A program made the translations under genes and the position numbers. Positions 6,470 to 64,000 of a DNA stretch of 64,000 nucleotides are shown piece by piece. How positions within the stretch are numbered: position 1 is the stretch's first letter; every line of letters begins with the position of its first letter. The DNA comes from Chloranthus sessilifolius. Lineage: Eukaryota > Streptophyta > Magnoliopsida > Chloranthales > Chloranthaceae. The notes beneath the pieces were generated by a model, which saw only the letters and a list, made by a program, of their open reading frames with translations, ran no database searches and was not told the origin of the DNA. The DNA is taken from NCBI GenBank assembly GCA_021018995.1, contig CM037584.1, forward strand, positions 149,003,317-149,067,316, given 5' to 3'.

Positions 6470-6925
6470 CTGAACCAATAGTATATGGCTGGAAAAGGTT
6501 GAAACAATAGTTATGTGGCTCAAGCCCCATACCCCCGACGTGGGAACCATGCGCTGAAATAATAGTACATAGCTGAACACAGGCTGAAATAATTATTCTG
6601 TGGCTCAGGTCCCAACGTAGGGAGACTATTTATTGAAACAATAGTATATAGTCGGAATGCAGACTGAAACAATAGTCTCGCATTTAAGACCCTTTTACCC
6701 TAATATGGGACTATATACTGAAACAATAGTATATGGCTGAACACAGGCTGAAACAATAGTTCTATGGCTCAGGCCCCATACCCCCGATGTGGGAACCATG
6801 CACTAAAACAATAGTACATGGCTGAGCACAGGCTGAAATAATAGGTCTGTGGCTCAGGTCCCAACGTAGGGAGACTATATACTGAAACAATAGTATATAG
6901 TCGAAATGCAAGCTGAAACAATAGT
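6470..6925 (+). promoter_or_regulatory. CTGAAACAATAGT motif array in the Tat-A U3
   Basis: Twelve copies of a 13-bp motif start at 6470, 6499, 6554, 6584, 6633, 6664, 6718, 6748, 6803, 6833, 6882 and 6913. Spacings alternate between 29-31 and 49-55 bp. Six motifs form a 248-bp unit that occurs twice. Corresponding arrays are present in the other two LTRs (about 33110-33590 and 40930-41400). Confidence 0.85.
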
Positions 6926-38889: not shown

Positions 38890-41478
38890 TGTTGTTGCGC
38901 GCTTTATCTGGGTTCCTCGCGGTCCCTGTTGAATCAGTGGCCCAATTCTGTCCAAGTGGACTCTAGCGATGTGGTCTTTGGAATGTTAGAAATAAAATAA
39001 ACGAGGGGATTTCTAAGAAGATTCCTAGTTGGTTGCGGTTGCTAGCTGCAGATATTTAACAATGCTGCAACATACCAGTGATCACAGTTTAGAGCGGGTG
39101 TGGGTTACTTCTTTACTGAATCGTCCGCCTACGAACGTCGACAGCTATGGCTCTTCTTGTAATTTAGATAGTTTAGTTTTCCTTTTCTTTCCCTGTTATT
39201 GCTATGATTCTAATTGGTTTAAATTTCCTAATTCTTTTGTGAGTCTAGTTGTGGTCGTATTTGGAGTCTAATTAATTTAGTGTCCTAATACTACTAGAAG
39301 TCCAATTAATATTAGTCTCCTAATTGTGCTAGGAGTCTAATTAATTTAAATGTTCTAATTTTATTAGTTTTCTAATTAATCTAGTTTCCTAATTTTACTT
39401 GAAGTCTAATTAATATTAGTCTCCTAATCATACTAGAAATGCAGGTATGTTAATTCTAATGGAGTTCTAATTGAATCAGGCATGCTAATTATATTGAAAT
39501 TCTAAGTAAAGTAAGTATACTAGTTCTACTGGAACTCTGATTGGAGTAGAGAACTAATTTTATTAAAACTCTAATTTAAGCAATGAATTAATTTTATTAA
39601 AAAAAATGTAATTAAAACAAAAAAGCTAATTTTATTAAAATTCTGATTAGAGCAAATAAACTAACTTTATTAAAATTATGATTAGAGCAGTGAATTAACT
39701 ATACTTGAAATCTAATTAAAGCAATGAATTAATCGCACTAAAATTCTAAAAAAAAAGGGTTTTGGGCCCGCTAGGCTAAGGAGGATTGGCCTCGTTCCCG
39801 AGTATCCTCCATAAGCTCCCTTGGGCAAATCGGGTGGCTAAGATTAAAGTAAATTGGATTTTGGATTATAAAGTAGTATTTTTGAATTTTTAGAGTCCAT
39901 TTCGAGATTATAATGATGAATTAAGTTATGAAACTAGAAGTTTGGAAAACTAAATTAATATTTGGGGTTGTAGAAATATTAAGCTAAGGAATCAAAACTA
40001 GAATTTAAAATCTTAAGGATTGAATTCGGGTCTGAAATCAGAAAATCAGATCGTATGATTAAGGACTGGTTCCAGAAATTAAGAACTAGAACCAGAGATT
40101 AATGATAGGACTAGAAATTAAGATTTTACAATAGAATTAAAGTCTATAGTTGGTGAATTGGGTTGTCAGATTAAGGACTGGTTCTAGAACCTAAGAACTA
40201 GAACCAGGTACTAAAATTATGATTTAAAAAAAAGGGGTTTACGGTCTAGAACTGAAAATTCAATATTAATAATTGAAACTAAGAGAAAATCCTAAATCTA
40301 AAACTAAGATTTTTACCTAAGACCGGGGCTGTGGAGAGGAATCTCAAAAATTCAAAGCTTGAATCTTGAAATCATGACTAGGTTCCTCTATGTGTTCGTT
40401 CTCGGAGTTCTCTGATTTTGGAATCCCAAAAAAATCTGTTCTCTCTCGTGTTATGTGCCCCTTTCGTCCAACCTCCTAGTCGAATTAAAAAAAAGGCTTT
40501 CATAGGTTTTTTTATAATTAAATGCCCTGTTTCCAGGTGCTTAATCGCTTTGAGTCGGTCACCAACTCAGTGAGCGATCGACTGACTTGCTCAGCGAGTT
40601 TTCTAGTTCTAACAAAGTTAGGACTAATTGCGCGCTTGTTGTAGGGTGCGCAATCCAATTAAATACTTCATTTGAAGCACTTGATCGAGAAAGCATGGGG
40701 ATAAAGGACTGTGAGACTAGGCCTGGTGTAGGCCAATTGTGTGCCGGTGGTGGGGTGCTCAATCTGATCACGCGTCTCGTATGAGGCGCATGGTCGAGTC
40801 TCGAAGTGGTTTGGGAAATGAAGTTTGGTCTGAAAGGGGGACAAATTGTACGCGTATGATTTAGCGTACGATCAAATTACACGCGTGGTTTTAAGCATGT
40901 AATTTGGGGCTATCCGGGTCCGGGTTGGGTCTGAAATGCCAGACTATTGTTTTAGCCTGCATTCTGACTATATACTATTGGTTCAGCCTGCATTCTGACT
41001 ATATACTACATTGGGGTCTGAACCACAGAGCTATTATTTTAGCTTGTGTTCAGCCATATACTATTGTTTCAGTGCATGGTCCCTACGTTAGGGTCATGGG
41101 GGGCCTGAGCCACAGAGCTATTATTTCAACCTGTGTCCAGCCATATACTATTGTTTCAATACATGGTCCCACATTAGGGCAAAGGGGTCTAAAATGCAAG
41201 ACTATTGTTTCAGTCTATATTCTGATTATATACTATTGTTTTGGTCTATAGTCTCCCTACATTGGGATCTAAAATATAGAGCTATTATTTCAGCCAGTGT
41301 TCAGCTATGTACTATTGTTTCAGTGCATGGTCCCTACGTTAGGGTCATGGGGTATTGTTTCAATCTGTGTTCAGCCATATACTATTGTTTTAGTATATGG
41401 TCCCAATTAGGGTTATGAGGTCAAAGGTTGATCGAACAAATTTATACATTCTGAGAGGGCGAAATGGGGGTGTCTACA
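38890..41478 (-). repeat. 5' LTR of Tat-H
   Basis: On the minus strand it starts TGTAGACACC at 41478 and ends CAACAACA at 38890, 2589 bp. It keeps the 180-bp segment that the Tat-A 5' LTR lacks. The ACTATTGTTTCAG array (complement of the U3 motif) lies at about 40930-41400. The TATA position reads ATGAAAG, a mutated box. Confidence 0.9.
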
Positions 41479-42819: not shown

Positions 42820-43800
42820 GATGGTGCAGCTGGGTTTTCAGTATATGTGTGAGTCTGGCAATTAGGGTGGCTTGGAAAAGATCTATCTAGGGTGCTAGGT
42901 TTGGCAACCATTAATGTTGCGATTTGTTGTTCGAGGGCTAAAACTTTCGCACTCATGTCATTCTCCTTTACTTTATTATTGCTGATATCGTAAAGTCCAC
43001 CCCTCATGAGCAAGGTGTGGTGAGTGACATCTGGATCAGATCTAAGCAGAGCCTGCTTTTGTTTTGAGTTATTGGCCATTTTCTCGAATAAATTTTAGGA
43101 CTGTTGGTCGTTTTGAGCCATAAAGGCTCCTCCACTCATGGCATCAACTGTAGACTGGTTAGTCTGAGTCAACCCTTGGCAGAAGCTTTGTGATATCGAC
43201 CAATTTGGTACCTCATGATGAGGACACTTCCGTAACAAATTCTTCAACTGTGTCCAACTCTCATGAAATAATTCTCTTGGCTTTTGCCTGAAGTCTTGAA
43301 TCGCTTGACGAATTTGGTTAGTTTTACCAATTGGAAAGTACTCGCCCAAAAACTTGGACTGTAATTCTTCTCATGTGGTAATACCTCTGGCAAGTAACGA
43401 AATTAACCATGCCTTCATCCTATCCTTGAGAGAGAATGGGAACAAACATAGTTTTATGACCTCTTTATTGACAGTAGATAATGGCAGCACTGTGCAAAGC
43501 TCTATGAAGTCCCTTAGATGTTGGTAGGGATCTTCTCGATCAAACCCATAAAAGGTTGGTATAGATTAAAGTATATGGAGCTTGATTTCATAATTTTGAC
43601 CTGCAGGCACCTTTGATATAACTATACAAGAGGGCTCGATCAAAGCTATTAGGCTGAAATATGCTTGGATTGACAAATCGTCAGCCATAACTAAGGATTC
43701 TCTAATGGGTATACGATGTGATGCTAAATTTCGCAAGAGAGTTCTTTAAATTTCTGGATCACGCTCGAAGAAGTCTAGGCTTCTAGATCGAGTGTGATGC
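42820..43800 (-). pseudogene. Athila-type gag (At1), truncated
   Basis: The minus strand encodes GFDREDPYQHLRDFIELCTV, LPLSTVNKEVIKLCLFPFSL, then EYFPIGKTNQIRQAIQDFRQ, ESWTQLKNLLRKCPHHEVPN and STVDAMSGGAFM. FF/YFP..KT..LR..I..F and LLRKCPHH.(I/V)P are diagnostic for Athila gag. Stops and frame changes occur (for example before EELQSKFLG and after NDQQS). The C-terminal part is cut at 42820. Gag would form the particle. The upstream part begins near MADDLSIQAYF at about 43690. Confidence 0.85.
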
Positions 43801-47690: not shown

Positions 47691-49245
47691 CAGATTTGGC
47701 CCAAGGCCCGATCAAAACACATTTCGAGAGAGGCACACTTCCGAGCTTCTGATGGTAGGTATCGTAACTTTAGAAATCATCCCGGATCACTTAAAACCCA
47801 TCCCAAATCTTTAGAAATCATCCCGGATCACTTAGAACCCATCCCAAATCTTTAGAATCCCTTTCGAACCCTAAACCTAACCTTCCTAGGCAATGGTTGA
47901 AGAGTGGTGCACTGGGACTATCTGAGATCTTCTACTATGATCAAATCATATACGATTGAAAAGTAGATGTCTCTAGCTTTTCAACGAGCCAAGAATCACC
48001 TTAATCGGAATTGCACATTAAAAGATGTAACGTTCCGAAGTTTCTAACAAATTAGGGTTTTGGGTGGGGATCCATATGGGATTTGGCACATGTAATACAT
48101 GCACCAATCCATTTCTGGGATGAAATGGCTCGGTGCAAGTATTAGTTGGACCAGCCTTATGTGTCCCCCCCCCCCCCCGCAGGAATGGAACTTTCCAAAC
48201 ACTGTTTTATTGTACCTAAGCTTGGTGCAAGTATTAATTACGCCAGCCTTAGCTACAGTAATTGTAGATTTTTTTACTCGAATTTCATCTTTGGGGTTTG
48301 ACTTGTTGACCATCTTGATGCCCTAGGTGTGCTTCACTTGTTCTGTTGCACCCTTATCCTATTTGTAACCCTCAAGTGATTTGAAACACTACCCTATCAT
48401 CCACCATTAAAGCTACTTTCACACTTTTCCAAGCTTCAAAAATCATAGGAAACCTTAGATGCTTGATTACCTAATTGCTAATCCAACTTAAGCCTCTAAG
48501 CATCCTCCTAACCTATCCTTTAACTATAAATATAGAGGTACACGTCCCTTTGAAAGGGCTTGAAAAATTTCCTAAGAGACAAGATTAAGAAAGAAGCTCC
48601 CTCTCCCCTTTGGTGCCCCTTTTGCATACAAATTATAATTCCCAAGCTCCCTTTTAGACCTTACCTTTTATGAAACCCTCTTAGTTTAGGTGAGGGCTAC
48701 CCTCTAGCCTTCCTTCTCTACCTCTTAACTATCAAGCCCTAGGAGCTAGAACCCTTGTTCTAACTACAAGCCATTGGAAGCTCACCGAAGTACGCTTATG
48801 CAAGGATCCACAATGGTGCAACAAGGGCCAAGAGTTCCGGCTCTCCCCTCTACTCTACCTTCTTTCTCCTTTCTCTATCCTCGTATTTGTGTCGTTATGC
48901 CGCCAAAATTCTGGTAGGAACGGAGGAGCACAAATAGGATTTTGGTACCCTAGGGCAAGAGGAAGGACTTTTTGCTTCTTTTATTTTATTTTTGTTTTGA
49001 CCATAAGTAGAGACCGCATTAAGCTGGTTGATCGGGTGCCTAACACCTTCCCGATTGATAACCGAAGCCCCTACCCAGGAGCCTTTAGCATAGACCGGTG
49101 ATTCAGAGGCATTTTTGGCACTTCGGTGCTTATAAAATTTATTATAGATTTCTCGGGACACCAAAAGCTCCGGGTGGCAACTCTAACATTTTTAGTAGGG
49201 TGCACATCGTCGCGACGGCTTCGTCACGATTCCCACGGTTGCACA
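47691..49245 (+). repeat. 5' LTR of Ogre-3
   Basis: 1555 bp, matching the inverted LTR at 50325-51927 in its start (GACACCCAGATTTGGCCCAA), its internal GAATCAT/TATAC block and its end (CCCACGGTTGCACA). The TATA box ACTATAAATATAG lies at about 48523. Palindromes are at 48083-48246, interrupted by a C14 run at 48165-48178. Confidence 0.85.
48083..48246. promoter_or_regulatory. 25-bp palindrome cluster in the Ogre-3 U3
   Basis: Three degenerate copies of the palindrome (core GCGCAACTANTAGTTGCGC) have centres at 48095, 48142 and 48234. The first two are 47 bp apart; the third is about two periods away, across a C14 tract. The cluster is about 290-440 bp upstream of the TATA box. Confidence 0.75.
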
Positions 49246-49247
49246 AA

Positions 49248-49265
49248 TGGCGACTCTGCTGGGGA
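49248..49265 (+). other. Primer binding site of Ogre-3
   Basis: TGGCGACTCTGCTGGGGA two bases after the LTR end. This is the PBS known for Ogre-type elements (tRNA-Arg type). Confidence 0.85.
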
Positions 49266-50324
49266 GTAGCTAGTAGAGCTTCCCCTTGAATTTTGGCCTT
49301 TTTATTTTATTTCGCTAACCTTATTGCTTGTTTTTATTATTTTTTTACTCACCCCTATGACTTTGTCATTTTCTCACCGCTACTTTTATGTCATTTACGT
49401 GACTTAGCCTATCGGCGAGCCTACTTACGCATTACATTTACTTTTATTTACTTTTAGGTCATTTAAACTGCCTTAGTCGATTAGCGGACCTACTTGCGTA
49501 TGTCATTTAATTTTTTTTTATTTTTCCGTCATTCACACGCCTTAGCCATTTGGCGAGCCTACGTGCATATTTACTTTATTACAAACATATTCTATCAGTG
49601 GATGACGACCCGTAGAGGCGGCACAGGACCACCACCACCCAGTTTTGGACTTTAAGCAAATTTCCTCTAAAATTAAAAATTAAAATTGAACCAACAAGGG
49701 GAACTTAATCAATTTTTGCGAGGTTAGATTTTCAAGGGTTGGGATTTCTAAGCAAATATATAAACTCCCAGTTCGTAGTATGGTGGCAGCCCCTAGTAGT
49801 GATGATCCGAAAAAGTACCAGCCCACCTAGTATCTGAGAAAGAGCTTGCGCTGGAGGTATATAGGGTGGGTAACCTATCTCATTACGAAGCCTAAAACCC
49901 ATGGGGAGAGAGCATTAGTAGACCTGCACCGGCCTTGTATCCCTTAAGTTCGGTGAGGAGAGACCCGATACAACTAAGTAGTTTGTCTCCAGAAGCATTG
50001 CTTCCAGAAAAAGCTAAAAAAAAGAGACTCATTTCGGGTTGTTGTTTCTGCTGTCAAAGCCTATTTGACCTCCCTTTTTGCCTGGCGCAACTAATACATG
50101 TGCCAAGTAGTTTTTATCTAGGATTGCTTTGGCACAATTAATACATGCACCAATTTAAAAATTGAGCAATTTTGCCTAGTACATCTAATACTTGCGCCAA
50201 GTCTGGTTTAGGCAATGCAGCCTAAATTTGTGGCCTATCTCACCATCCCGGATTCCCCGATTAGTGGTTTAGCAACTCTGTTTAGTTCCCACATTATCCG
50301 ACACCCAATACGCCCCCGCCGGTC
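49266..50324 (+). other. Leader of Ogre-3
   Basis: Non-coding leader with weak repeats (GCGAGCCTAC.TGC, about 49413-49575) and a short frame near 49780 beginning MVAAPSSDDPKKYQPT before a TAG. That frame may be the start of the Ogre first ORF. The palindrome cluster at 50082-50200 lies inside. Confidence 0.55.
50082..50200. promoter_or_regulatory. 25-bp palindrome cluster in the Ogre-3 leader
   Basis: Centres at 50094, 50141 and 50188, exactly 47 bp apart. The arms are partly mutated (for example CTGGCGCAACTAATAC...). Confidence 0.8.
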
Positions 50325-51927
50325 TGTGCAACCGTGGGATTTGTGACGATCCTGTCGCGGTGATGTGCTTGCCTGTAAAAATATAGAGTTGCCACCCAGA
50401 GCTTTCGGTGTCTTGGAAAACCTAGTTCATTTTTATGAGCACCGAAGTGCTAAAAATATGACTCTGAATTCAGTCCACACCAAAGACTCTTGGGCAGGGG
50501 CTTCGATTATCAATTGAGAAGGTGTTAGGCACCCGATCAACCCGCTTAATGCGGTCTTTACTTATGGCCAAAATAAAAATAAAGTAAAAGAAAAGAAAAT
50601 GGCTACCTCTTGCCCAAATGGGCCTCAACTCCTATTTATGCCCCTTCGCTCCTACTGAAAATTCGGCGGCGTAACGGCACAAATGGGAGGATGAGAAAAG
50701 CCAGAAAGAGATAGGAGAAGAAAGGGTAGAGCCGGAGCCCTCGGGCCCTTGTAGCACCATAGGAGAGCCTTGGTGGCTTGCTTTTGATGAGCTTTTGAAG
50801 GCTTGACTGGTGGAAAGAGGGGTTCTAACCACTAAGGCTTACTAGCTAAGAAGTAGAGAAGGGAGGCAAATGGATAGCACACACCTAACCTAGAGATTTT
50901 TTATGAAAGGTAAAGCATGGAATGAGGTTTTAGAATTTTGGAATTTGTATGAGCAATGGTGCACCAAAGGGAGAAAGATCTTCTCACTTTAAGCTCTTTC
51001 TCTCTTAGGCAAAAATTCTCAACCCTTAAACCAAGGGGAGGGGGGCTCTATTTATAGGAAATGAGTGGGTTAGGAAGGTGTTTAGATTCTAATCAAGATT
51101 AGGAGTTAGGTAATCTAACATCTAAGGTTTCCTAGGGTTTTTAGAGCCTTGAAATGTGTGAGAAAGTCCTCCAATGGTGGATGATAGGGTGAGACTTTAA
51201 GCCACTTGATGGGTTGCAAATAGGGTGTGAAAGGATGCAACATAACTATCAAAACACACCCCAAAGGTCAAGGTGGTCAACAAGTCAAACCCCAATCACA
51301 AGTTTTAGGGTGAAAAACTAGGATTACTATTCATATGACTTGCGCAACTAATGTACAGTAAAATAGTTCAATACAGTGCCTTGGAAGTTGCCTCGAGAGG
51401 GTGGGGTCCACTTTAATGTTGGCGCAACTAATAGTTGTGCCAGGCTTAAATTCTAGAAAAATGGCCTGGCACAACTAATAGTTGCACCAAGGAAAAGCAT
51501 AACTGGCATAAATATTATTTGCACCAAATCCCAAGGGGGGCCACTTGAAATTACTCCTTTGCCCTCCAATTTCAGACCGCCATATCTTTTGAAGTATAAC
51601 TCTGATTGGGGCGATTCTTAGACCGTTGGAAAGCTGACAACTTCTACTTTTGAATAGTATATGATTCGATCATAGTAGAAGGCCGTAGCTCATTTCAGTG
51701 TAACAATCCTTTTCCAAGGTTTGAAAGGTTAGGTTTAGGTTCAGAACGGGTTCTAAGGGTTAGGATTGATTTCTAAGGGTTCGGGGTAGGTTCCTAGGGG
51801 ATCTAGGGTGATTCTTAAAGGTTTGGGGTGATTCCTAAGGGTTCCATACATGCCATCAAAAGCTCGGGAATGCGCCTTTCTTGAAATATGTTTCGATCAG
51901 GCCTTGGGCCAAATTTGGGTGTCTATA
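50325..51927 (-). repeat. 3' LTR of Ogre-2
   Basis: On the minus strand it starts TATAGACACCC at 51927 (family TGTAG) after ACTGGGGCATC, the PPT, and ends CGGTTGCACA at 50325, 1603 bp. A TATA box, CTATAAATAG, lies on the minus strand at about 51050-51060. No PBS follows the 3' end, as expected for a 3' LTR. Confidence 0.85.
51339..51527. promoter_or_regulatory. 25-bp palindrome cluster in the Ogre-2 U3
   Basis: Centres at 51351 (half site), 51431, 51478 and 51515. The middle pair is 47 bp apart. The cluster lies about 290-470 bp upstream of the TATA box on the minus strand. Confidence 0.8.
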
Positions 51928-53239
51928 GATGCCCCAGTTTGGTATCTGATCACTAATGATTGAGTGCCAAAGAAAAGAGACATCCGAAGGGGCCCAAGGC
52001 ATTACCAACGAGTCTGTTGCATTCAGAACGAACTTCAAACATCAGGTGAGTAACATGGTGAGAAAACAAAAGTCCTGTATGTCGAGAAAAATATCCGTTT
52101 CTCAAGGTCATCGGTCCCCAAGCGCTTAGGCAACATTACTGGGCATAACCGAGGGAATGAGTTGCGAAAGCCTAATAGCTAGGAAAAATATTCGCTTCTC
52201 GAGTTGCAAAAGCCTGTTAGTTAGGAAAAATGTCCGCTTCTCGAGATGATTTGAAGGTGATTGATATTCGAGATTCATTCTGAATATAACAACTTCGTAA
52301 GTAAGAGCAGTGATCGGCCCATACTCAAAGATAGGTACAAAGTAAAAACATAAGGCTCCACAGTTTGCGTCAAATCCTACGAGGCATTTGATTGTCCCAT
52401 CTGACTGTTCACTGGTGCCCCTACTAAAAGCAGGGTTCAAGGTCTTTGGGTGAACCCATCGATCCCGAAGTTTATTTAGCATGACTGCCCGAGTGAAGTG
52501 AATAGATGTCACAACGCTTTTTAGGAGTTCGTGCCATTTTTGAAAGCATGCCCCAGATCAACATGACCTAGAGCCTCTAGCTTCAACTACCTTGAACAGA
52601 TCCAACCAAACATTCGGTATCTCCTAAAAGGGGCATCCAAACCTAGTTTCTGCCAACAATGATGATAAATGTCATTTAACTATACATAAACATGCACCCA
52701 TTAGGGGCGATAAGCAACAAAGGCAATGGAAGCCCTGACCAGTACCTACCCGAGTACAATTAACGGGAACAAACGACCATCATACAGATACCCAGACGTA
52801 TGGCATAAACTTTATAGGGATACCGTTTCCCATACAGGTTTTAAGCCTACAGAAAATAAAAGGGAAATGAACCCTTCTGAATGCATTGTTGCACATAGTT
52901 TGATTGATACATAATCTCATTCTCAACAGGTTGGTCCCAACCAACGACTGACCTTTTTCAATAGAGAATCTGAAGCTTAAGACACTTAAGTTCATGTGAA
53001 TCTAAAACAGAGTTCTTAGCTCAAAGATTTAGCAGTGGAGTCAACCTAATTAAAACATTGACCGTTTGATCGGGTCACTCCTACTTTGAAGTAGGATCCA
53101 AAGATCCAAGGTGAACCCTAGACTCGGGACATTAATATGGCACAACTGCATTGCTGATAAAATATTGACATTTTACCGCATTGAAAACATGCAAGTGCAC
53201 TGCTTTGTAGGAGAATACAAATCTATTTTTATTTTCGTG
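51928..53239. other. Ogre-2 non-coding region between LTR and minisatellite
   Basis: It holds the PPT (51928-51940) and a small tandem repeat at about 52161-52244 (two copies of a 43-bp unit with TAGGAAAAAT and CGCTTCTCGAG, with a third partial copy before them). No gene was seen on either strand. Confidence 0.55.
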
Positions 53240-53735
53240 GTTTTTCTATTATTATTTTTTGGATTTTAAAGCTGTTATTTTATGTGATTTTTTTTAAATT
53301 TTTCTAACAATCATTTTATGTGATTTTTTTTGGATTTTAAAGCTGTTATTTTATGCGATTTTTTTGGATTTTTCAAACTATCATTTTATGTGATTCCTTT
53401 GGATTTTGAAGCTGTTATTTCATGTGATTTTTTTGGATTTTTCAAACTATCATTTTATGTGATTTTTTAGATTTTGAAGCTACTATTTTATGTGATTTTT
53501 TGGATTTTGAAGCTGTTATTTTATGTGATTTTTTAGATTTTTCAAACTATCATTTTATGTGATTTTTTTAGATTTTTCTAACTATCATTTTATGTGATTT
53601 TTTGGATTTTTCTAACTATCATTTTATGTGATTTTTTATGATTTTGAAGCTGTTATTTTATGTGATTTTTTTGGATTTTTTCAAACTATCATTTTATGTG
53701 AATTATTCCTATTATTTCATGTGAATTATTTTGGC
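53240..53735. repeat. Minisatellite of two alternating unit types
   Basis: About 14 units of 31-37 bp share ATTTTATGTGATTTTTTTGG. Type A continues with AAGCTGTT, type B with CAAACTATC. The order is roughly A B A B A B A A B B B A B plus a degenerate end. Confidence 0.85.
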
Positions 53736-54310
53736 TTTTCTGTGGGGACTTTTTTTTTTTTTTTTTATCATTTTTGGCTTTTTTTTTTGTGTAGGACCGG
53801 GATGCCTATTGATCTTGGTTCGCTTTTATTCTAGCACGGCTTCCTGAGCAAGTTGAAGGAGGATCAAAATGTCGTTTGAGAGTACATACATCTGCCGGGA
53901 GTGACAAAACAAAAATAGAAAGGAGGGGGGGGCGGTTTTCCTATTTGGCCCGTACCAGGCCCGAGACCAGACCTAACTGCCTAGCGCAACTACTAGTTGC
54001 ACCAGGCCAATAGGGGCCTCAAAATAGCTTGGCGCAATTATTAGTTGCGCCAAGCTAGCAATGGGTTTAAACCCATTTTGCTCGGCGAACTAATAGTTCT
54101 TGACATGTGCTTGGTGAGACCAATTTAAATGAAGAGCTTGGACTGTGGGGTTTCATTTTGAAATTTTCTCCCCCCTTTTCCCTTAAAACCAAAAACCGAC
54201 CCCCTTTAGGGTTCCTTTACATTGCATCTATGCGTGCCTCATCACAGTTATTCGCTCGCGTTAATCGATCGCCGTCTTGCGCTAGATCAAAGATCCCTTT
54301 TCTTCCAAAA
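53736..54310 (+). promoter_or_regulatory. Upstream region and 5' UTR exon of the first Ogre-2 antisense gene
   Basis: Palindromes at 53981, 54029 and about 54081 precede a CT-rich leader (54160-54310) that ends at a donor AAAAG/GTAACC near 54311. No clear TATA box was seen. The order palindromes, leader, intron is repeated at 57835-58120. Confidence 0.45.
53981..54105. promoter_or_regulatory. 25-bp palindrome cluster before the first Ogre-2 antisense gene
   Basis: Centres at 53993, 54041 and 54093. The middle copy has 12-bp perfect arms, AGCTTGGCGCAA and its complement, around 7 bp (54026-54056). Confidence 0.85.
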
Positions 54311-54311
54311 G

Positions 54312-57300
54312 GTAACCATTAAAACTCTTCTTTCGATTGATTTTTCTTGCTTTTTCTTGCAAATGTGATCATGATCTTGCACTTTACGAAGGAGTAGTGG
54401 TTTATTTTTGGTTGTGGATGCATTTATTGATGGTGTGTGGATGATTTCTTATGATCAATGCCCTATTCTTTGTTATTTTACGGATTAATTGGTGCCTATA
54501 TGTTTTGTTTGTGTTTTTTATTTTTGTTTTTTTTGGTTTTTGTTAAGGAATGGATGCACTTTTTTTTGTTGGTTTTCTTTATTTTATGGGCCAAAAGAAA
54601 GGACTCTTTGTTTTTTTGGCTTTTGATTTTTGGAGCATAATGAAAGGACTCTTAGTTTGTTTTTTTGTTTTTTTTTTTGTAAACGGATTTTTTTTGGGTT
54701 TTGATTCATGATTTTTTTTTTGAAGCATAAGGACCCCCTCTTTTTTAATTTTTTGTTTTTGTATACAAAGTGAAAGGATTTTTTTTTGGTTTTGATTTTT
54801 TGAAGTATAAGGATTTATTTTATTTTATTTTTGTAAACAAAGTAAAGGATTTTTTTGATGATGATGATTTTTTTTAAATATTTTTTAAAAAATTTTGTTG
54901 CATGTGTATCTTTATTTATGAAAATAAACGAGAAAATGGTGAGCATTCTTACCTCCCCTTGACGCATAGTATATCATGGTTCTTTGTCATTGACCTGACC
55001 GGATGTGATTGCCTTTTGTTACCCCAGCATGTCGAGCAATAATGAGCTTATTCCTGAGGAGGGCCATGAGGAGGGGCTTGAGATAGTATACAGTCCGCGG
55101 GGGGAGCAGTTCCTCTGGGTGGAGCGGAGAGCGGGCCCATGGCTAGAAATGCAGGGCGAGGCTGCCCGAGTCGGCCTCCTACATCAACAGCACACCCATA
55201 ATTCAAATATTGGAATAGCGGGCAAGGTAAAAGAGGTTCAGTTCATTTCCTTTGTGCGACTTTGCTTTACTTCCGTGATCTGATGTGTATTTCTTTGGAT
55301 GCAAGACCTGCCCAACATTGTATTCCATGGGGGTTGACTCGATTTTCAAGACTTCTACCTCTACGTCCCTCCCTCGGTGAAGCTCACATCAGCAGGGCTT
55401 TGGGGAGTTCTCACCGCCTGCTATGAGGGCTGATGCTGCCTACTTGAAGGCCTTGATCGAATGATTTCACCTTGAGACAATGACCTTCCATATGCCGTAT
55501 GTTGAGATGACCTTGACGCCTATTGATTGGGCGATGATTACGGGCATCAGGATGGGAGGGATACCGATAGCTGACATCGCGATACCGAGTAGGGAGGACA
55601 TCATCCGACTGATTGGGGCCTATCACCCTCGCTGGCAGAAGCATGGTATCGAGGTCAAGATGACCTAGCTGACCGCCCTTTATATGCCTGACAAGTTAGT
55701 GGATCTGGGTTAGCCAGACAGGGTGCTCTATATCACGCCTGAGCGAGCGATCATCCTGGCTCGCATCACTCTCCTGCTTCTGCTGGGCAAAACCCTTTCT
55801 ACCAATGCGAGTGGGGGCAGAGTCAGCCTAGCATTGCTGAGCATGATGGACAACTAGGGTGACGTCCATAGGTATGACTGGGGTGGAGCCGGGTACGCAT
55901 GGCTGATGTATAATGTGGCTCGAGTCACGATCGGGGATTCTAAGTCCGCTGTTGGCTTTTGGGCAGCCTTGGAGGTAATCCCTAGCTCTTCCTGTTATTA
56001 TTATTTTTACTCGGATGGTCTCTCATGCTACTGACCTGTTGCTCTTTTTTGTTGTATAATGCTCTTCTCAGGTATGGGGTACCATCATTTCCACCTCGAG
56101 CTCCCGCTTCTCCATTCAGATGCGCTCACCTATCCTCTCCTTAGCAACTAGAATCAGGCCCGGTGCCATGATGTAGGCCTGAAGCACTTGGAAATGGGCT
56201 TGAGGTCTCAACTCGTCTTGATGGTTCCTGAGCAGGTAAAGCTCCTTTTCTACCTTGTTTGTTTGGGCTTAGAAATACTCTTCTATTGAAGTGCTACCTA
56301 TTTGGCCGCCTTCTGACTTGGGCAGATTCTCCACGACCCGTACCTTGTGTCACCCTTCTGGGATTGGGCAGCCGTGGGCCCCTCTCGCCTATTTAACAAC
56401 TGCCACATCATTTTATTTTATGGGGCGTGGGCTAAGTTTTACTATTTGTGAGAGCGGGTCGTGCACCTGTACCAGGGATACTATGCCCTACCCGTGGACC
56501 CTCCCGCAGATGTTTGGGCTCCTGTTGGCACCGTCGAGGTGCTTACGTCGACCTTTCTCAACAATGGGCTCCCTATCAATGCCCTCTTTATGCCCGAAGA
56601 CTATCATGCTTGGTATGAGTGCCTGCCTTATCGGTTCATCTTGCCGCGCTTTGTACCTAGCGCCAATTTCCTTGCATTTGGTGGCCCCCTCAGTCAGGTA
56701 ACTCTCCTCAGATTGGACTAGTTCCCCTTATGTTCTAATTCAGCCTTTGTTTTTTTTTCTAAGCGGATCCTTATTTTGTTCACAGTTTGCTTAGAGAGAT
56801 GACTCGGATGGCGAAGGCGGGATAGGCGCAGCTGACATGTCAAGGGTAGATCCTTCTGGTGCCGGCCCCTCTGGTGCGGGTCCCTTAGGCGAGGGTTCTT
56901 CTGGTGTTGGACAGTCGGGCACCTCCCATGCCAGTGCCCCTAGTAGTGACCCGCCCATGGTTTACGGGACCTTCCGACGCCTAGATGATAGCTTCCTTTC
57001 GGGCCTCTGCGTTGATGTGGATAGGCAAGCACGACTCTCTGCTGAAGCGGCCTGTGTCCCACCTCCTAAGGTGATCCCAGGGGTAAGTCCTCTGATGACC
57101 CATCTCTTTCTTGTTTCGGTCTCCTTTTGGGCATGTTTCATGATTGCCCTGATAACTAATATTGTATCTTTCTAAACGTAGGACTTTTACTTGGCCATGG
57201 AGTATGCTGCGTATCATCGCCACATTGCGGAGCTCAGGGAGGTGGAGACGGTGAGTACCTTGCTGCACTGCTTCTCCCGCTTGCTTTATTTATCATTTGT

Positions 57301-57475
57301 CCCTCAATTGGTACTAATTTCTGATTTCGACTGTGCCTTGCAGCATGCATGTGCCAAGGAGTCACGCTCCTTGCTTAGTAGGAATTCGCAGGCATGGTCC
57401 CGGGTGGGAGATATGCGGACTTTCCAGAGCTCCTCTCCTCATCGGAAGAAGTCCAAAGGCGCGGGCAAGGAATAG
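54312..57475 (+). pseudogene. First antisense PMD-like gene of Ogre-2, multi-exon
   Basis: After a 5' intron (54312-55027), ATG at 55029 begins MSSNNELIPEEGHEEGLEIV. The PMD part (about 55430-55975) reads MTFHMPYVEMTLTPIDWAMI, TGIRMGGIPIADIAIPSR, ERAIILARITLLLLLGK and DWGGAGYAWLMYNVARV. Further exons start at about 56072, 56325 (DPYLVSPFWDWAAVGPSRLF) and 56785 (Gly/Ser/Pro-rich, GAGPSGAGPLGEGSSG). The last two exons encode EYAAYHRHIAELREVET and end KKSKGAGKE with TAG at 57475. Stops (for example 55462, 55855) and a frameshift near 56072 break it. It is antisense to the element, as the PMD gene is in Tat-A. Confidence 0.7.
54460..54900. repeat. T-rich degenerate repeats in the 5' intron
   Basis: About six loose repeats of AAAGGACTCTT/AAAGGATTTTTTT with TTTGTAAACAAAG and TGAAG(C/T)ATAAGGA. 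Probably slippage-expanded. Confidence 0.6.
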
Positions 57476-57834
57476 GCTTTAGTTTCTGCTTTAAAATTCA
57501 GTACTCCTGGGATTGGATTTTGATTTTTTAGACAGTTTGGGATGGATGATGTGACACTTTGGATATATTTTTTTTGAAAATATTTTTAGTGCTTTTGTTT
57601 GGATTGTATGCCATGCCTTCCTTGTATCGTATCTATTTTTCTGTAGGACGTGTTTGCCAAATGCTCTCAGAAAGTGACTTTTTGGGTCGCATGCTTTGAT
57701 GTAGGATCAATCCTGCACATAAATAAAGTAATTTCCAAACCGTTAGTGGTCGGATGTGTATATATATAAAAAAAGCAAAAGGGGTGAAAGTCCCCCCAAT
57801 TAGGCCCCGAGATGGCTGAGGGGGGATCTTTGGT

Positions 57835-57953
57835 CTGACATAACTATTAGTTGCGCTAGGGTAAATCCTAGGGAATTTATATTGGTGCAACTAATAGTTG
57901 CGCCAGGCAAAAATGGGGACAAAATGCATTGGCGCAACTAATAGTTGTGCCAG
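57835..57953. promoter_or_regulatory. 25-bp palindrome cluster before the second Ogre-2 antisense gene
   Basis: Centres at 57847, 57894 and 57941, exactly 47 bp apart. A 5' UTR with a possible donor AAG/GTTAGT follows, and the ATG lies at 58120. Confidence 0.88.
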
Positions 57954-58119: not shown

Positions 58120-59358
58120 TATGGACCCGCTTTCTAACCCTCCCTTACGTGGAGGGCCCGGAGCCAATTTACGCCCTTCCTTGGGCTTGGGGCCCAAATT
58201 TCTAACAACATGGTTTGGGAGTTTGAATGAGAGTGAGCTCGCCGACTTAGAGCGCCTTGGACTATCTCGCCTTCTTTCCTTTCTTGGGATGTAAATTTCC
58301 ATGTATTCTGTTTTGGGAGGCGGGAGCTAACCCCAACCTTGAGGAGCTATCCAATCTGTCCGGCTTGAAGCTTCATAGGGGCCTTGCAAAAGTCACGCCC
58401 CGGTCGGGCTACTCCAAATTCATTCACCTTATTCTCGGTTTGAAGAAACTCGAGTATGAGAAAAGTCTCATTGGGGGGCCCATAAGGTGTTCGCTGAAAT
58501 TCCTCAAAGAACTTTTCGGTGATGAAAGTCTTCGAAAATTGCTGGTTAAGAACATTTTCAACGGAAAAGCTTTAGCTCTCAGTCTCATTTTATAAATCCT
58601 CTTCTTTACCGAGGGGAGAGCTTCTCCTTGGCAATTTGCGAATTTCTGATTGAGTTGGAGGCAGGCCGATCTATGATGCATTTGGTGCTTGCTAAACTAT
58701 ATTGATGCCTTGATGCATTTGCTTTGGGCAAGGTGGAGGGCCTTCGGGGGTGTCCCTTACTACTTCAGGCTTGGTTGTGCGAGCACCTCGCTATCTTGGG
58801 GCCTGTGCCCTACTTTTATATTGCTCGAGGTGACGGGGCCCAGTGCTTTTTGGGTAGGTGCCACCTGCTTCTGCGTGGTGATTTATTATTTCTGAAGCCT
58901 TAGTTGGCTGATGCTGAGCTGATATGGAGGTTTCCTTGGTTGGACCGGACCTTCCCAGTAGCTCGCTCTAGAGACCATGAGAGCATCACTCTCCTAGGAT
59001 TGACTAGCAGCACCTTTTACTTCTCATTCCAGGTGTTGCATCAGTTTGGTTGCTCCCAGCAGGTGCCTTGCGAGGCCAAACCCCCTTTATGCAACTTGAT
59101 CTTATCTAGGGGGTCCTCCGGAGACATAGATCGGATCACTGCTCTTTGGGAGACGCGTTAGTCAATGCTGATGTGTGATATGGAGCAGGGAGATTCGGTT
59201 CAATATTCTCTCGAGTGCGAGGCCTGGCTATCAACTGAGCAACGTATTGCTGGTGATCCGAATTCAGCAGAGATCATTGACACTGGAGGCCCCTAGCCAA
59301 AGAAAGAGGCGGTACTCAGAGCCCGCATCGAGCTACTGGTGGATGAGAAGAGGGTCCT
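58120..59358 (+). pseudogene. Second antisense gene of Ogre-2 (PMD/MAIN-like, decayed)
   Basis: ATG at 58120 begins MDPLSNPPLRGGPGANLRPS, followed by LTTWFGSLNESELADLERLG. After a frameshift at about 58260 come FWEAGANPNLEELSNLSGLK, then LLLQAWLCEHLAILGP, then ITLLGLTSSTFYFSFQVLHQ and FGCSQQVP. The end has EAWLSTEQRIAGD and a helix (LRARIELLVDEKRVLDQF). The sequence of motifs (NLEEL..L.G, LQ.W..EHL, V..QFG..Q.VP, coiled-coil end) is that of the PMD/MAIN-like proteins found in Tat/Ogre elements. It is cut at 59358 by R1. Stops and frame changes are frequent. Confidence 0.55.
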
Positions 59359-60657
59359 TGATCAATTTTAAATAAACCCTTGCAAGTGTACAAGATCTGT
59401 TCTAGTAAGGCAAGAACAAGGGTGTCGAACCCACAGGGAAATCTGAAATTTTATTCAATTCTTCCTAGAGATTTAAAAAATATCCCCGAGGAAGTACCAA
59501 GGGGCAGATTTTAATTTTTACCAAGAGTTAACACTTTTCTAATTGCAAGAAAGAAAACAAATTAATCTAAAAATTATGTAATGAGAAATCTAAGAACAAA
59601 TTTTAAAAACAAGATCAAGGAATTTGCTACCCCAGATTTATACCCTTTTCTATTTTTAAACCCACAATTTTATGAACATCAACACACCATCATTCTAAGA
59701 GAAACATGACTAGTAATTAAGCGTGATCATTAACCCGGCATACCCTATCTAAAAACAATGACTCAGCCTAATCGCGGTATGAATCATGTGAAAAGCATAG
59801 CGTATCTCGTGGTATTTTCGATCAAAACACTAAAATGTAATCACTACACTTTAAGAAAAACGATTTGATGATGAAATTATCAAACTATGGCATTAAACAT
59901 AAAATATAGGTACTTATCTGGGGATCGCATCCTCCTTGACCTACAGCCTTTAGCCTCTCATCCTTGTTGCAAGATCTTCAATTGTATTCAAAATCATTCC
60001 CAATGTAAAGAGCAAAGAAGGTGTAAAATGAAGAACACAATTTTACTACTCTCCGAAAACTCTCTTACAAAAGTCTCTAGTTATTACACAAATTTCTCTA
60101 ATCAAAACTCTCTAAGAAATAAAAACTCTCTTCAAACAAAAACAACTCTCCCCCAAACAAAAACAACTCTCTCTTTTCAAAGCCGTAAGCCTCTTATTTA
60201 TAATATCCGATTGAAACTAACCCTAATTGCCTCAATCGATTGAGACAGAAGTCTCAATCGATTGACTTAGTGTTCGAATTCCCTTAGGACACTTCTGCCT
60301 TCATGGCTCAATCGATTGAATTTTATGTCTCAATCGATTGACTTTCTAGGGTTGAGTTTTTCTCCATCTGCCAATCGATTGACCATAATGCCTCAATCGA
60401 TTGACTCTTCAATGCAAAGTCTCCCCTTTCTTGATGGAGGTTGATTCTCTTCATGGCTTTCAATGCTTCTTTGGACCTTTTTGTCCGTATCTCTTTTTTT
60501 AGCCTGTAATTTCCTTCTTTTATGCACTTTGAACGATCTAGCTGTCAGAAACACCTGTAAACATCAAAACCTCACAACAACCATCAGATGCTTTCATTGA
60601 ACAGCTAAATGTAGGATTTAAAGTGTGAATTATAGTCATATTTCAACACCGATCACA
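59359..60657 (-). repeat. 3' LTR of R1
   Basis: On the minus strand it starts TGTGATCGGTG at 60657 after the PPT, and ends AAATTGATCA at 59359, 1299 bp. Near the end is CCTGTGGGTTCGACACCC, usual in gypsy LTRs. The flank GTCCT at 59354-59358 is the expected target site copy. The TATA box is at 60195-60202. Confidence 0.8.
60195..60404 (-). promoter_or_regulatory. R1 LTR promoter: TATA box with three TCAATCGATTGA pairs
   Basis: TATAAATA (minus strand, 60195-60202) is preceded by six CAATCGATTG cores at 60233, 60255, 60309, 60331, 60372 and 60394: three pairs, each exactly 22 bp apart. The nearest palindrome is about 30 bp from the TATA box. Confidence 0.88.
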
Positions 60658-60850
60658 CCCCCAAACCTACACTTTGCTAGTCCTCGAGCAAAGAGAATGA
60701 TAAATATAAAAATAACATCCTAAAATTTAAATGCCACTTCGTAGGGAACACGATTGCACTTAGCATGTGCAACATAAGCCTTTAAACCCCTAGGTGATCC
60801 CTAGTGGAGGAGTTGTGTCTCAAGGTTTTCGCTTGAAGGTACCGCAAACT
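60658..60850 (-). other. PPT and conserved pre-PPT segment of R1
   Basis: The minus strand GGTTTGGGGG directly precedes the LTR. The adjoining 180 bp match 1725-1913 of L1. Confidence 0.75.
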
Positions 60851-62230
60851 TCAAGGCTATCAGATTGATTAATCATGTCCTTAAGCAATTAGACGCTCCT
60901 GAAAAATCTTTTAGAATACATCTAACCACGTTCATTCCATTTATGCCACATTCAGTTCAGACCGTTGTCTTCTAATGTTCATATTTCATGCCTCAATGTC
61001 ATGAGATCATCACTGCCCAAAGTTCTTATGTCAGAGGAAAAAAAACTTAAACTGGAACTTTTAGATCACATGTCTAGACTCCAATCCTCACCATGGGTAT
61101 ACACTCAGAATGAAATCACTTCCGATGAATGAGATGGAATTGTAACACAATTAGAAGAAAACCTCACAAGTTTAAAGATATATGGTGTATCAAAGAATTA
61201 TAAGGGAAATCTCATTAAGAAAGATATCTGTATTTTAAGCATGCATATATCAAGCACCATAGACAATTGTGTACTTACTCTCCACAAGGCATTTCATCAC
61301 TCATGATTGGATCAAAAAGGTCTTTTCTAAGGTTGTAATGAGGCTCGGGTTAAGGTTAAGAGAAGAAAGGAAGGATGGATTCAAAAGTTTCTGAGAAATT
61401 GGAAAAGAAACAACTACTGATTTTGTATTTTTATTCTTTTTTTCTTTTCTAGTCTCTCACCATTCTTCTCAATATATTTTTCATTGTTTTTACAATTTCC
61501 TTTTTTTTCCTTTTTTTTTTTTTTTTTTTTTTTTTTCAGTACACACTATAACACATATAATCCCCACTTACTCTCGTTTCACTCATTTTCATCCCTTGTT
61601 CCTAATTTCTCAGAAATAAGTAAGGGCAAGCTGAATTCGAGTAAGCGGTAAGAAGGGTTAAAGGTTATTGCAGCTTATCAAAGAATGTATAAAGGTAAAT
61701 TTCCAATAAGCTCAAAGGTGTACTAGAAGGATAAATTTATAAGGTGGGTCAGTTTAAGCACAGACGAACCAATGATGGCCTTAGATCATTTCCTTTCATG
61801 ATGGTAAAATATGCCCATTTGCCTTAAGTTAGTACACAATGATTTCTAGTGTAATGTTATAACACACATAAAATGACAAATCAATGGGTTTTAACAATTG
61901 GAACAAGGATTTCAAAGATATCAATTTATTTCAAGACTCATTAAGAACAAGGACAAGTGTTTCAAAAACTTTCAAGGTTTTAGTCTTTCTTTGTGATCTT
62001 TAGGATTCCATGTTACACACTTAATCCTCCGATTTTGAGATTGAAAGCGAGTGATGAAAATAATTATTTTTAAGCATGATTCATGATCATTAATGTTCAA
62101 TATCTACACCTTATGGGCACTCATAAAATAACCATGGTATGATAGCATTGATTAAAGAAATTTCAGGAAGAATTTTTCATGCTCACAAATATGGATAATC
62201 AATTAAATTACAGCTTTTGCCAACCATCAG
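60851..62230. other. R1 non-coding interior
   Basis: AT-rich sequence with a long T run at 61500-61540. No supported gene. It is probably the long 3' untranslated region usual in this kind of element. Confidence 0.5.
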
Positions 62231-62380
62231 TTAATCGATTGAGACCAAATTCTCAATCGATTGACTGATTGGACTCAATCGATTGACTGATTGGACTCAA
62301 TCGATTGACTGAGCCACAAATTCTTATATCCTTTAATGTTTATCAGTTGATCGATTGAGACAGTATGCTTAATCGATTGA
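62231..62380. promoter_or_regulatory. TCAATCGATTGA array, internal cluster 1
   Basis: Cores at 62232, 62254, 62276 and 62298 form a quartet with three 22-bp steps. A further pair is at 62348 and 62370 (22 bp). Edge copies have one or two changes. Confidence 0.9.
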
Positions 62381-62774
62381 CTGATAAACATTCAAAAATC
62401 CGAGAACAGCTAAAAGGTTCTTTTTTTTTTTTTTTTTTTAAAAAAATAAGAACAATTACCCCCCCAAACCTGAACGGGCCAATGTCCTCATTGGTGATGA
62501 TGTGGAGAAAGGGAAGAAGGCCTCCCCAAACCTGCTCTATGCAAGCAAAGGACAAAACAACCGAGCAAGGGAAAGAGAGAAAACACAAATACGAAACTAT
62601 ATTGTTATTAAAAAGAAAATTATGACAAAGTAAAGCAAAATCTAACGTGATGCAACACGAAACAAACGAATCCCAAAACGAAAACAAACCGAACTGAAAC
62701 AACAATAACAGAAAAATAACCCTACCCTAAAGACATGTAAAATTAGACCCTAAAAACCGAAAACAAATCCTCTA

Positions 62775-63026
62775 GTCCGCCATGGTAGAGATTCCGCCCC
62801 GTGGCTTTGGAAAAGCGTAGCGCCACATTTCTTCAGAAATTCCAACCGCGCCGACGGGTGGGATTTGGGCCCGAGGTGGTGATAAGGGTGGGGGAGGGTT
62901 GGTGATGACAGGTGATGAAACAGATTCGTCATCAAGGTGGATGATGGCATGGGTGGACCAATCGATGGGTGGTGGAGCGGTGTATCGGGCACGTTTGCGT
63001 GCGGGCTCCATTAACTTTTGGATCAT
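62775..63026 (-). CDS. Small ORF of R1 (84 codons)
   Basis: ATG at 63026 begins MIQKLMEPARKRARYTAPPP and contains IDWSTHAIIHLDDESVSS, a Pro-rich stretch (NPPPPLSPPRAQIPP) and the end PKPRGGISTMAD. It has a basic start (possible nuclear signal RKRAR) and no known domain. It is more GC-rich than its surroundings. A CAATCGATTG cluster lies 180-500 bp upstream on the minus strand, so it could be driven by that cluster. It might also be an exon of a longer gene. Its role is unknown. Confidence 0.35.
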
Positions 63027-63206
63027 GCGCCAGACGGAGACGGATGGAAGACATGGCGACAAGGCGGGGACGGAAACTGCAAATATGGACTAAAAGGAGG
63101 ACCCGGCAAGTGCCTTAAATAGCGAAGAATTTCCTAAAAGAGGGACACTTTAAAAGAAAAAATTCGGAAGTCGGTGCATGGAGAAATATTGAGAAAGGAG
63201 TCTCAG

Positions 63207-63526
63207 TCAATCGATTGACATGTTTGTGTCAATCGATTGACAAGAGAGGGCAAAGATGGTAAATCCGAGCTCCACATCAAATATTTGGAAAAACACCCCT
63301 ATTCCAGCAGGGGTTGACTGGCGGACCAAGTAAGTGTCAATCGATTGGCACCTAAATGTTAATCGATTGATGAACCATGCTAAAAATAGAGACCAAAACC
63401 AGGAATGTCCAAATTGAGGTGCATCAGTCAATCGATTGAGACAGAAGTCTCAATCGATTGACGGAGGAAAATTTAGGAGGGCATGAAGTAGCTCAATCGA
63501 TTGAGAGGGAGATCTCAATCGATTGA
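63207..63526. promoter_or_regulatory. TCAATCGATTGA array, internal cluster 2
   Basis: Eight cores form four pairs: 63208/63230, 63338/63360, 63429/63451 and 63494/63516, each exactly 22 bp apart. The 10-bp spacer GACAGAAGTC of the third pair is identical to that of the first LTR pair at 60233. Confidence 0.92.
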
Positions 63527-63680: not shown

Positions 63681-64000
63681 TCACACATCATCATCATCAT
63701 CTTCATCTTCATCTTCCGGTTCCCGCCCCTCGTTCATTGCCGCTCTTGCGCCGTCGATGAAATGGTTGGCACGACCCGGGAATGACTCGCGAGCCATCCG
63801 CATTAGGAGAGCGGTTTGAAACCGGGACCGCCTATCCACACCACCAAGCCGCATTTCAGCCCACCATCCGCACCTCAAGAGCAACAAATACCCGGCATCA
63901 AAATCGGGACCTCTTCGACGAGGTCGCTTAACACCGCCACGCTATACCAGGCGGGGTTTGACGGGAGGAGGAGGAGCATCCTCAACCGGGGCCGATTGCA
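63681..64000 (-). pseudogene. C-terminal part of an R1 ORF
   Basis: The minus strand is open for at least 85 codons up to a TGA at about 63681. It encodes VKRPRRRGPDFDAGYLLLLR, then GGVDRRSRFQTALLMRMARE and an acidic end EDEDEDDDDDV. Upstream, near 63945, a TAG separates it from a Pro-rich stretch (PPVKPRL) in the same general direction. The segment is GC-rich. I do not recognise the family. A basic-then-acidic tail is compatible with a nucleic-acid-binding protein. Confidence 0.35.

Follow-up and report, generated by a model that had tools for sequence, protein, structure and literature searches.

A 34-bp paired-palindrome unit with a 22-bp step and covarying spacer ends in an Athila-like retrotransposon of Chloranthus sessilifolius

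Here we describe a 34-bp repeated unit carried by a long terminal repeat (LTR) retrotransposon of the plant Chloranthus sessilifolius. The window analysed is a stretch of 64,000 nucleotides (GenBank assembly GCA_021018995.1, contig CM037584.1, here C1:149003317-149067316; the assembly comprises 2,168,743,587 bases in 32 contigs), which we read as retrotransposon-dense plant DNA. The carrier is a complete, young, Athila-like Ty3/gypsy element on the minus strand. Each unit consists of two copies of the 12-bp palindrome TCAATCGATTGA (the arms) held apart by a spacer of 10 bases, so that the arms follow one another at a step of 22 bp. The arms are conserved, the step recurs throughout the genome, the units lie almost entirely outside gag-pol, and the outer bases of the spacer covary across the centre of the unit. 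Our preferred interpretation, to which we give nearly an even chance, is that the unit would be a cis-regulatory DNA site bound by a dimer of dimers of what is probably a host factor.

Paired sites and their spacing

Exact copies of TCAATCGATTGA number 14 within the window, and 100 shuffles gave a mean of 0.01 and a maximum of 1. With up to 2 mismatches allowed there are 22 sites, 20 of them inside 60232-63526; the remaining two, at 43297 and 54329, are isolated. The first-pass annotation, made from the letters of the window, had reported twenty 12-bp palindromes in this interval. The count stands for sites, but only 14/20 are exact and 6/20 carry one mismatch (60371, 62231, 62369, 63337 and 63359) or two (62347). 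Its grouping of the sites into eight pairs and one quartet, with each within-group step equal to 22 bp, holds for all 20 (Table 1). It had also described the spacers as mostly different, and 9 are distinct among the 11 in the window units; GACAGAAGTC is common to two distant pairs (60232..60265 and 63428..63461), and CTGATTGGAC occurs twice in succession inside the quartet. The spacers are not free, however, as their ends covary as base pairs. An Rfam scan of the window returned 0 matches.

The genome contains 18,872 exact pairs whose spacer is 10 bases long, and a control in which the pattern is read backwards finds 0. Exact pairs with spacers of 0-9 bases together number 921 and those with 11-31 bases 3,210, or 92 and 153 per spacing on average, which makes spacing 10 some 120-200 times as common as the average other spacing. 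Such counts of repeats may be lower bounds, and the family copies within them are not independent, though their spacers are diverse. Across the window and 23 loci, 278/395 sites (up to 1 mismatch) have an exact 22-bp partner, and distances of 21, 22 and 23 bp occur 23, 144 and 10 times. In 22 further loci, 81/155 sites have such a partner, and adjacent distances of 21, 22 and 23 bp occur 8, 44 and 15 times. Loci L007-L025 were picked near listed places for spacing 10 or other spacings, and are therefore biased toward site-bearing sequence; the 22 further loci (L027-L048) were picked near listed places for other spacings. The 22-bp step thus stays the dominant spacing in the relatives examined, a comparison that the earlier annotation had proposed, with 21 and 23 also present. 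Compensated loss of the central CpG (C-to-T in the left arm, G-to-A in the right) is found in 110 exact pairs versus 18,872 intact ones, a figure that is uninformative by itself, its comparator being the direct counterpart TCAATTGATTGA-N10-TCAATTGATTGA.

The arms differ from those of two related loci (L007 and L008) at 16/564 aligned bases (2.8%), compared with 62/457 (13.6%) in the 10-bp flanks and 453/5628 (8.0%) in the background (arms versus background, Fisher p ~1e-6); these counts come from five pieces, one LTR piece being compared with both relatives, and are not fully independent. Spacer ends differ at 18/141 bases and spacer centres at 15/93. In the piece covering the gap between pol and the third open reading frame (ORF3) alone, 8/96 arm bases are different. 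Sites entered the comparison only if at least one of the two sequences showed a recognisable copy, which biases the arm figure down somewhat, by an amount that we judge smaller than the gap between arms and flanks. CpG dinucleotides such as those in the arms are expected to decay fast in plant repeats. The low divergence of the arms and the excess of spacing 10 support the view, already put forward in the first-pass annotation, that selection probably acts on both palindromes and spacing. That account's reading of the pairs as binding sites on one face of the DNA would fit as well; what it had missed is the inverted-repeat nature of the 34-bp unit.

Base-pair covariation across the spacer

A palindrome is its own complement, and each pair is therefore also an inverted repeat. 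What is new here is that the symmetry continues into the spacer, whose ends covary as base pairs. Judged by its sequence, the 34-bp unit is an inverted repeat with a predicted stem of about 15 bp and a loop of 4 bases.

The covariation samples were taken from contig C1. The first started from 159 pairs with up to 3 mismatches (9 pairs of 168, with more than 3, were omitted); pairs were counted as unrelated when flanks plus spacer were less than 60% alike, which dropped 90/159 and kept 69. In these, bases at spacer positions 1/10 are complementary in 38 pairs (18.6 expected), at 2/9 in 37 (25.0) and at 3/8 in 32 (21.7), with no excess at 4/7 or 5/6. All four pair types contribute at 1/10 (AT 7, CG 8, GC 16, TA 7). 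Of the ten outer flank positions, -5/+5 is alone in falling under the nominal 0.05 level (unadjusted p 0.047). The second sample, with 17 unrelated pairs, gives 12/17 at 1/10 (5.1 expected), 9/17 at 2/9 and 10/17 at 3/8 (p 0.0006, 0.025 and 0.014, respectively). For the combined 86 pairs the counts are 50 (23.7 expected), 46 (29.8) and 42 (26.9), again with no excess at 4/7, at 5/6 or at the three flank positions tested. Slid registers are weaker, though not all flat, with z 3.0 at 1/8, 2.2 at 2/10 and 1.9 at 3/9 versus 6.5 at 1/10.

The same pattern is seen beyond these samples. Genome-wide, the 11,124 pairs whose spacers have G or C at both ends divide into GC 5,933, CG 2,495, GG 1,342 and CC 1,354, an odds ratio of 8.1; the count covers G/C-closed pairs, not A/T-closed ones, and the copies are not independent. 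Listed spacers of other lengths have complementary ends as well (12/20 versus 5.7), and in 57/86 cases the natural spacer has a more stable fold than its shuffled versions have on average.

Substitutions in the arms can be examined in the same way. In 74 unrelated pairs with up to 4 mismatches there are 68 changed cells, of which 12 are compensated across the arms (null 2.3, p 0.0017; each compensated change makes two cells), 6 are shared in direct register (null 1.9, p 0.07) and 2 are kept within one palindrome. Clear compensated arms are found at L009:4588 and L016:1679 (TTGATCGATTGA versus TCAATCGATCAA). The second sample gives no support alone, its 27 cells including 4 compensated as in a hairpin, 2 in direct register and 4 within a palindrome.

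Changes between related copies can be classed as one-sided or two-sided. At 1/10, 15/35 changed types are two-sided, 8 of them between two Watson-Crick pairs; the corresponding figures are 8/44 (0 between two Watson-Crick pairs) at 2/9, 12/47 (2) at 3/8 and 4/44 at 4/7. The three nearest flank positions give 1/33, 0/30 and 0/29, counts that are lowered by the use of the flanks in the relatedness filter. Near-identical copies in L004 have T...A versus C...G round one centre.

Read in transcript orientation, G-U is tolerated no more than A-C (48 versus 44, p 0.75; arms alone, 19 versus 27), so there is no pointer to RNA over DNA as the selected form, and an RNA-specific hairpin is unsupported.

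Separately, the window holds a second palindrome family at 48084-57952, based on the 23-mer TGGCGCAACTAATAGTTGCGCCA; when up to 6 mismatches are allowed it has 14 matches, again grouped at a nearly fixed step. Its steps are 47 bp in six cases and 48 in one, with two other short steps of 92 and 37, and its arm changes compensate as well (CAACT...AGTTG versus CATGT...ACATG).

Placement and possible roles of the unit

In the element pieces examined there are 49 sites with up to 2 mismatches, and 46/49 have a 22-bp partner; the three partnerless sites are at 65276, 67424 and 70673 (extended window coordinates). With element and gene boundaries set by us, the sites fall in the 3' LTR (6), the 3' noncoding region (6), the gap between the small ORF and ORF3 (8), the gap between ORF3 and pol (7), the leader before gag (15), the covered part of the 5' LTR (6) and gag-pol (1). 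Thus 48/49 lie outside gag-pol, with 0 in the ORF3 region and 0 in the small ORF. The three pairs in the U3 (unique 3') part of the LTR are about 30-200 bp upstream of the putative TATA box TATAAATA; the placement near this box that had been noted at first reading is confirmed, the closest site being ~30 bp from it (minus strand, 60195-60202).

Units are not confined to this family. BLAST comparison among the loci indicates that most share stretches with the window LTR or with one another, as several Athila-like families. Two further clusters, B (L003, L014 and part of L016) and C (L004, L005 and L013), are independent in the sense of having no long nucleotide matches in the pieces examined. 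L018 is an apparently unrelated LTR element: it has 92%-identical repeats of ~1 kb with only ~2 kb between them and a primer-binding site (PBS) presumably of the tRNA-Met type, and its repeat bears sites at 21- and 22-bp steps. In L024:1871-2058, nine consecutive sites follow one another at 22 bp; two are exact and the other seven are non-palindromic variants, among them five TCAATCTATTGA in succession, in direct orientation (L024:1959-2058).

We suggest that each 12-bp palindrome binds one homodimer and that the 22-bp step, about two helical turns, sets two dimers on one face of the DNA for joint binding. Units would be kept in U3 upstream of the TATA box and in other noncoding gaps because the bound factor helps transcription of the element, opens chromatin, or both. 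Placement is what suggests this step from site to effect, whether promoter activity or chromatin opening. The factor would be a host protein captured by the elements rather than one that they make; the presence of units in at least one apparently unrelated LTR element makes a host factor more likely than an element-encoded one. The inner three spacer bases, paired across the dyad, may add a geometric constraint on the complex, and this pairing also makes a hairpin or cruciform fold available to the unit. Protein binding to the unit is favoured by the low divergence of the arms, the excess of spacing 10, the 48/49 sites outside gag-pol, the U3 position and the units in L018.

Several points weigh against it. 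Independent protein contacts alone do not explain covariation of all four base-pair types. The site is a predicted one, and no transcription factor has been matched to the motif. An exact 22-bp partner is lacking for 117/395 sites (up to 1 mismatch) in the first set of loci and for 74/155 in the second, and with steps of 21 and 23 occurring too, the rule is strong yet not absolute across families.

A broader form of the proposal is that the unit is a distinct DNA control site, taken up separately by several unrelated plant LTR retrotransposon lineages, that recruits one host factor and possibly switches between a linear four-subunit form and an extruded hairpin; we regard this as possible, though on balance it would be the less expected outcome. 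Should a single factor read the 18,872 exact pairs, and further ones that carry mismatches, many retrotransposons of this 2.17-Gb plant genome would be under its control or would be exploiting it. Being short, exact and paired, the site lends itself to direct isolation of the factor, which would render the capture of host regulators by retrotransposon promoters testable. The covarying spacer predicts that an effect lost on changing one closing base would come back once its partner is changed.

The main rival holds that structure comes first, the unit being selected as a hairpin or cruciform in DNA or transcript, by analogy with the case made for maize Sirevirus palindromes, where strong predicted structure accompanies small RNAs. 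We consider it unlikely as the primary explanation, although most of the covariation evidence speaks for it: paired spacer ends in both samples, in the genome-wide closing bases and in spacers of other lengths, compensated arm changes, two-sided changes at 1/10 in excess of those in the flanks, and stable folding. Structure by itself requires neither a single arm sequence nor arms that are palindromic, nor a spacer fixed at 10 bases, and a hairpin alone fails to explain the non-palindromic direct-repeat arrays at 22 bp, such as that in L024. The indifference to G-U, the arm cells of the second sample, the want of two-sided changes between two Watson-Crick pairs at 2/9 (0/8), the mild excess at some slid registers and the absence of general pairing in the outer flanks also tell against it. 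We rank protein binding higher, since arms held by structure alone would be free to drift. Protein binding would explain a conserved palindromic arm that recurs across families and the two-turn step, and base pairing would explain the covariation of the spacer; neither alone explains both.

Alternatively, a protein encoded by the element, for example from ORF3, might recognise the units and counter silencing, by analogy with the VANC proteins of VANDAL transposons. The arrays fill noncoding regions and avoid genes, as VANC targets do in the available text of PMC5735166 and PMC10398659, and several Athila-like loci that bear units have ORF3 pieces with 69-73% identity to one another. In contrast, units are also present in L018 with its different PBS and ~2 kb interior, no relative of ORF3 was seen in the examined pieces of clusters B and C (a search that was not exhaustive), and ORF3 itself gives only Pfam matches below cut-off and an AlphaFold2 model with a mean pLDDT (predicted local distance difference test) of 34.5, which is unusable. 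This alternative seems improbable to us.

A mostly neutral origin, by tandem duplication and element copying with strand switching at inverted repeats making the symmetric spacer, is very unlikely: the quartet and arrays do resemble tandem copies, two distant pairs share GACAGAAGTC and, read as direct repeats, a few positions are alike (spacer 3 with flank +3, p 0.010; flank -2 with spacer 9, p 0.047), but the arms are less diverged than flanks and background, the spacing is kept across spacers without common sequence, and foldback copying would, as we expect, extend symmetry outward, whereas it is found inside and not outside. Recent duplication, raised in the first-pass annotation as a competing explanation, can account for the quartet and a few arrays, not for pairs with unrelated spacers and flanks.

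The closest known case that we found is the repeated palindromic motifs of Sireviruses (PMC2829016), and the earlier statement that no named element has such a design needs qualification to that extent; the 22-bp pair itself was not found under any named element in the literature searched. According to the portions of PMC2829016 available, the RM boxes of these Ty1/copia elements are palindromes present in many copies per element upstream of the LTR TATA box, and in ENV-bearing Sireviruses also 5' of the ENV gene. There, 12/13 motifs have a CGG-CCG core, the exception being the Tnd-1 motif ACAATCGATTGT (8 LTR copies, Table 3 of that paper). Tnd-1 differs from TCAATCGATTGA in the outermost bases alone, the core CAATCGATTG being common to both; literature matches to CAATCGATTG as a promoter motif include PMC2829016. 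Like the Sirevirus motifs, the sites here cluster upstream of the TATA box in the LTR (three pairs, 60232-60404), and seven more lie 5' of an env-like ORF, between pol and ORF3. Unlike most Sirevirus motifs, the core here is ATCGAT, as in Tnd-1; the host is a Ty3/gypsy element with sites also in the leader and other noncoding gaps; and the pairs have a fixed 22-bp step and covarying spacer ends. The same portions of PMC2829016 describe no fixed spacing, covarying spacer or Ty3/gypsy host.

In maize Sireviruses, palindrome clusters lie in a cis-regulatory LTR region and have strong predicted structure and small RNAs, as reported in the available part of PMC10760457; the palindrome itself is interrupted there (CACCGGACNNNGTCCGGTG), whereas here structure would form between two perfect palindromes. 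The VANC motifs of the Mutator-like VANDALs (YAGTATTAY and AGTTGTCC/AC) are likewise short, repeated and located in noncoding regions of a plant transposon, a likeness of placement only, and the accessible text of PMC5735166 and PMC10398659 does not describe them as fixed-step palindromes. VANDALs belong to the DNA transposons and have a known cognate protein, and membership of the present element is rejected on class, since LTRs, a target-site duplication (TSD), RNase H and integrase are present. Among the matches listed, no text with exact TCAATCGATTGA or AATCGATTGA concerns plant repeats, judging by title or start of abstract.

Elsewhere, a collection of viral contigs contains 0 exact pairs. 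A collection of genome contigs contains two homologous Geothrix/Acidobacteria loci with the same 12-N10-12 palindrome pair (L001:3649-3682 and L002:5233-5266), with ~0.001 exact pairs expected there by chance in a back-of-envelope estimate. The pair is intergenic, with a divergent ORF on either side; in L002 each of these ORFs matches TetR_N. The spacer ends of the pair, C...A, are not complementary. We count these loci in favour of protein binding as an analogy only.

The carrier element and other features of the window

The element runs from 59359 to extended window coordinate 72701 (13,343 bp), the end being taken from the LTR end in L049. Parts beyond the window are given in the neighbouring locus L026, in which a position equals the window position minus 62683. 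The two LTRs differ by 7 substitutions in 1278 aligned bases plus a few indels of 1-2 bases, and the TSD GTCCT is found at 59354-59358 and just beyond the 5' LTR (L049). The features are collected in Table 1.

Table 1. Units and other features of the element (window positions unless a locus is named; a dot marks features without strand)
Feature	Position	Strand	Basis
3' LTR, reads TGATCGG...TTGATCA on the minus strand	59359..60655	-	
Putative TATA box TATAAATA	60195..60202	-	read from sequence
U3 pair 1 (sites 60232/60254), spacer GACAGAAGTC	60232..60265	.	exact match
U3 pair 2 (sites 60308/60330), spacer ATTTTATGTC	60308..60341	.	exact match
U3 pair 3 (sites 60371/60393), spacer CCATAATGCC; left copy CCAATCGATTGA, but TCAATCGATTGA in the 5' LTR	60371..60404	.	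mismatch scan, LTR comparison
Polypurine tract GGTTTGGGGGTG adjoining the 3' LTR	60656..60667	-	read from sequence
Quartet (sites 62231/62253/62275/62297), 22-bp steps, spacers GACCAAATTC, CTGATTGGAC, CTGATTGGAC	62231..62308	.	mismatch scan
Pair (sites 62347/62369), arms with 2 and 1 mismatches, spacer GACAGTATGC	62347..62380	.	mismatch scan
Small ORF, first ATG gives MEPARKRARY...	62772..63029	-	ORF list
Pair (sites 63207/63229), spacer CATGTTTGTG	63207..63240	.	exact match
Pair (sites 63337/63359), 1 mismatch per arm, spacer CACCTAAATG	63337..63370	.	mismatch scan
Pair (sites 63428/63450), spacer GACAGAAGTC, as in U3 pair 1	63428..63461	.	exact match
Pair (sites 63493/63515), spacer GAGGGAGATC	63493..63526	.	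exact match
3' end of ORF3 region, between pol and 3' LTR (env-like position)	63681..64000, runs past window	-	several frames
5' LTR	from L026:8719, beyond window	-	LTR-LTR alignment

In the pair at 62347..62380 the outer flanks TGTTTATCAG/CTGATAAACA are complementary too.

The assignment is made from the PBS, the order of RNase H and integrase and the extra ORF, and the claim is limited to 'Athila-like'. The PBS TGGCGCCGTTGCCGGGGA, which we take to be of the tRNA-Asp type, that of Athila, lies directly inside the 5' LTR, on the minus strand; an identical PBS string start is found in L008 and L021 and a shortened form in L025. In pol, RT_RNaseH (L026:3533-3919, minus strand) precedes the integrase domain rve (L026:2540-3226, minus strand), and RNase H is thus upstream of integrase. 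Ty1/copia elements have integrase before reverse transcriptase. Membership of the Sireviruses is rejected, as RNase H precedes integrase here.

The ORF3 region (L026:998-2139, minus strand), presumably env-like, is spread over several frames in the present copy and is not one open frame. One piece (L026:1259-1849) is 72-73% identical to ORFs in L021 (72%) and L016, and another (L026:1729-2139) is 53% identical to L016. The first piece has a PF20167 match with E 0.0087, below the Pfam cut-off. A GP67 match at 63681-63941, also below cut-off, sits in an acidic run and was disregarded. The small ORF has no Pfam match. A homology search with an open frame spanning two pairs returned 1 candidate, with none scoring.

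Just outside the 3' LTR, 58904-59161 has a weak match to the plant mobile domain (PF10536, E 0.0065, below cut-off), and the element may sit inside plant-mobile-domain sequence. Elsewhere in the window, a tandem array with a period of 34-35 bp occupies 53257-53713, and repeats centred on AGGCTGAAATAATAGTTCTGTGGCTCAGG are found at 6496-6858, 33140-33502 and 41017-41296, several of them 85 bp apart.

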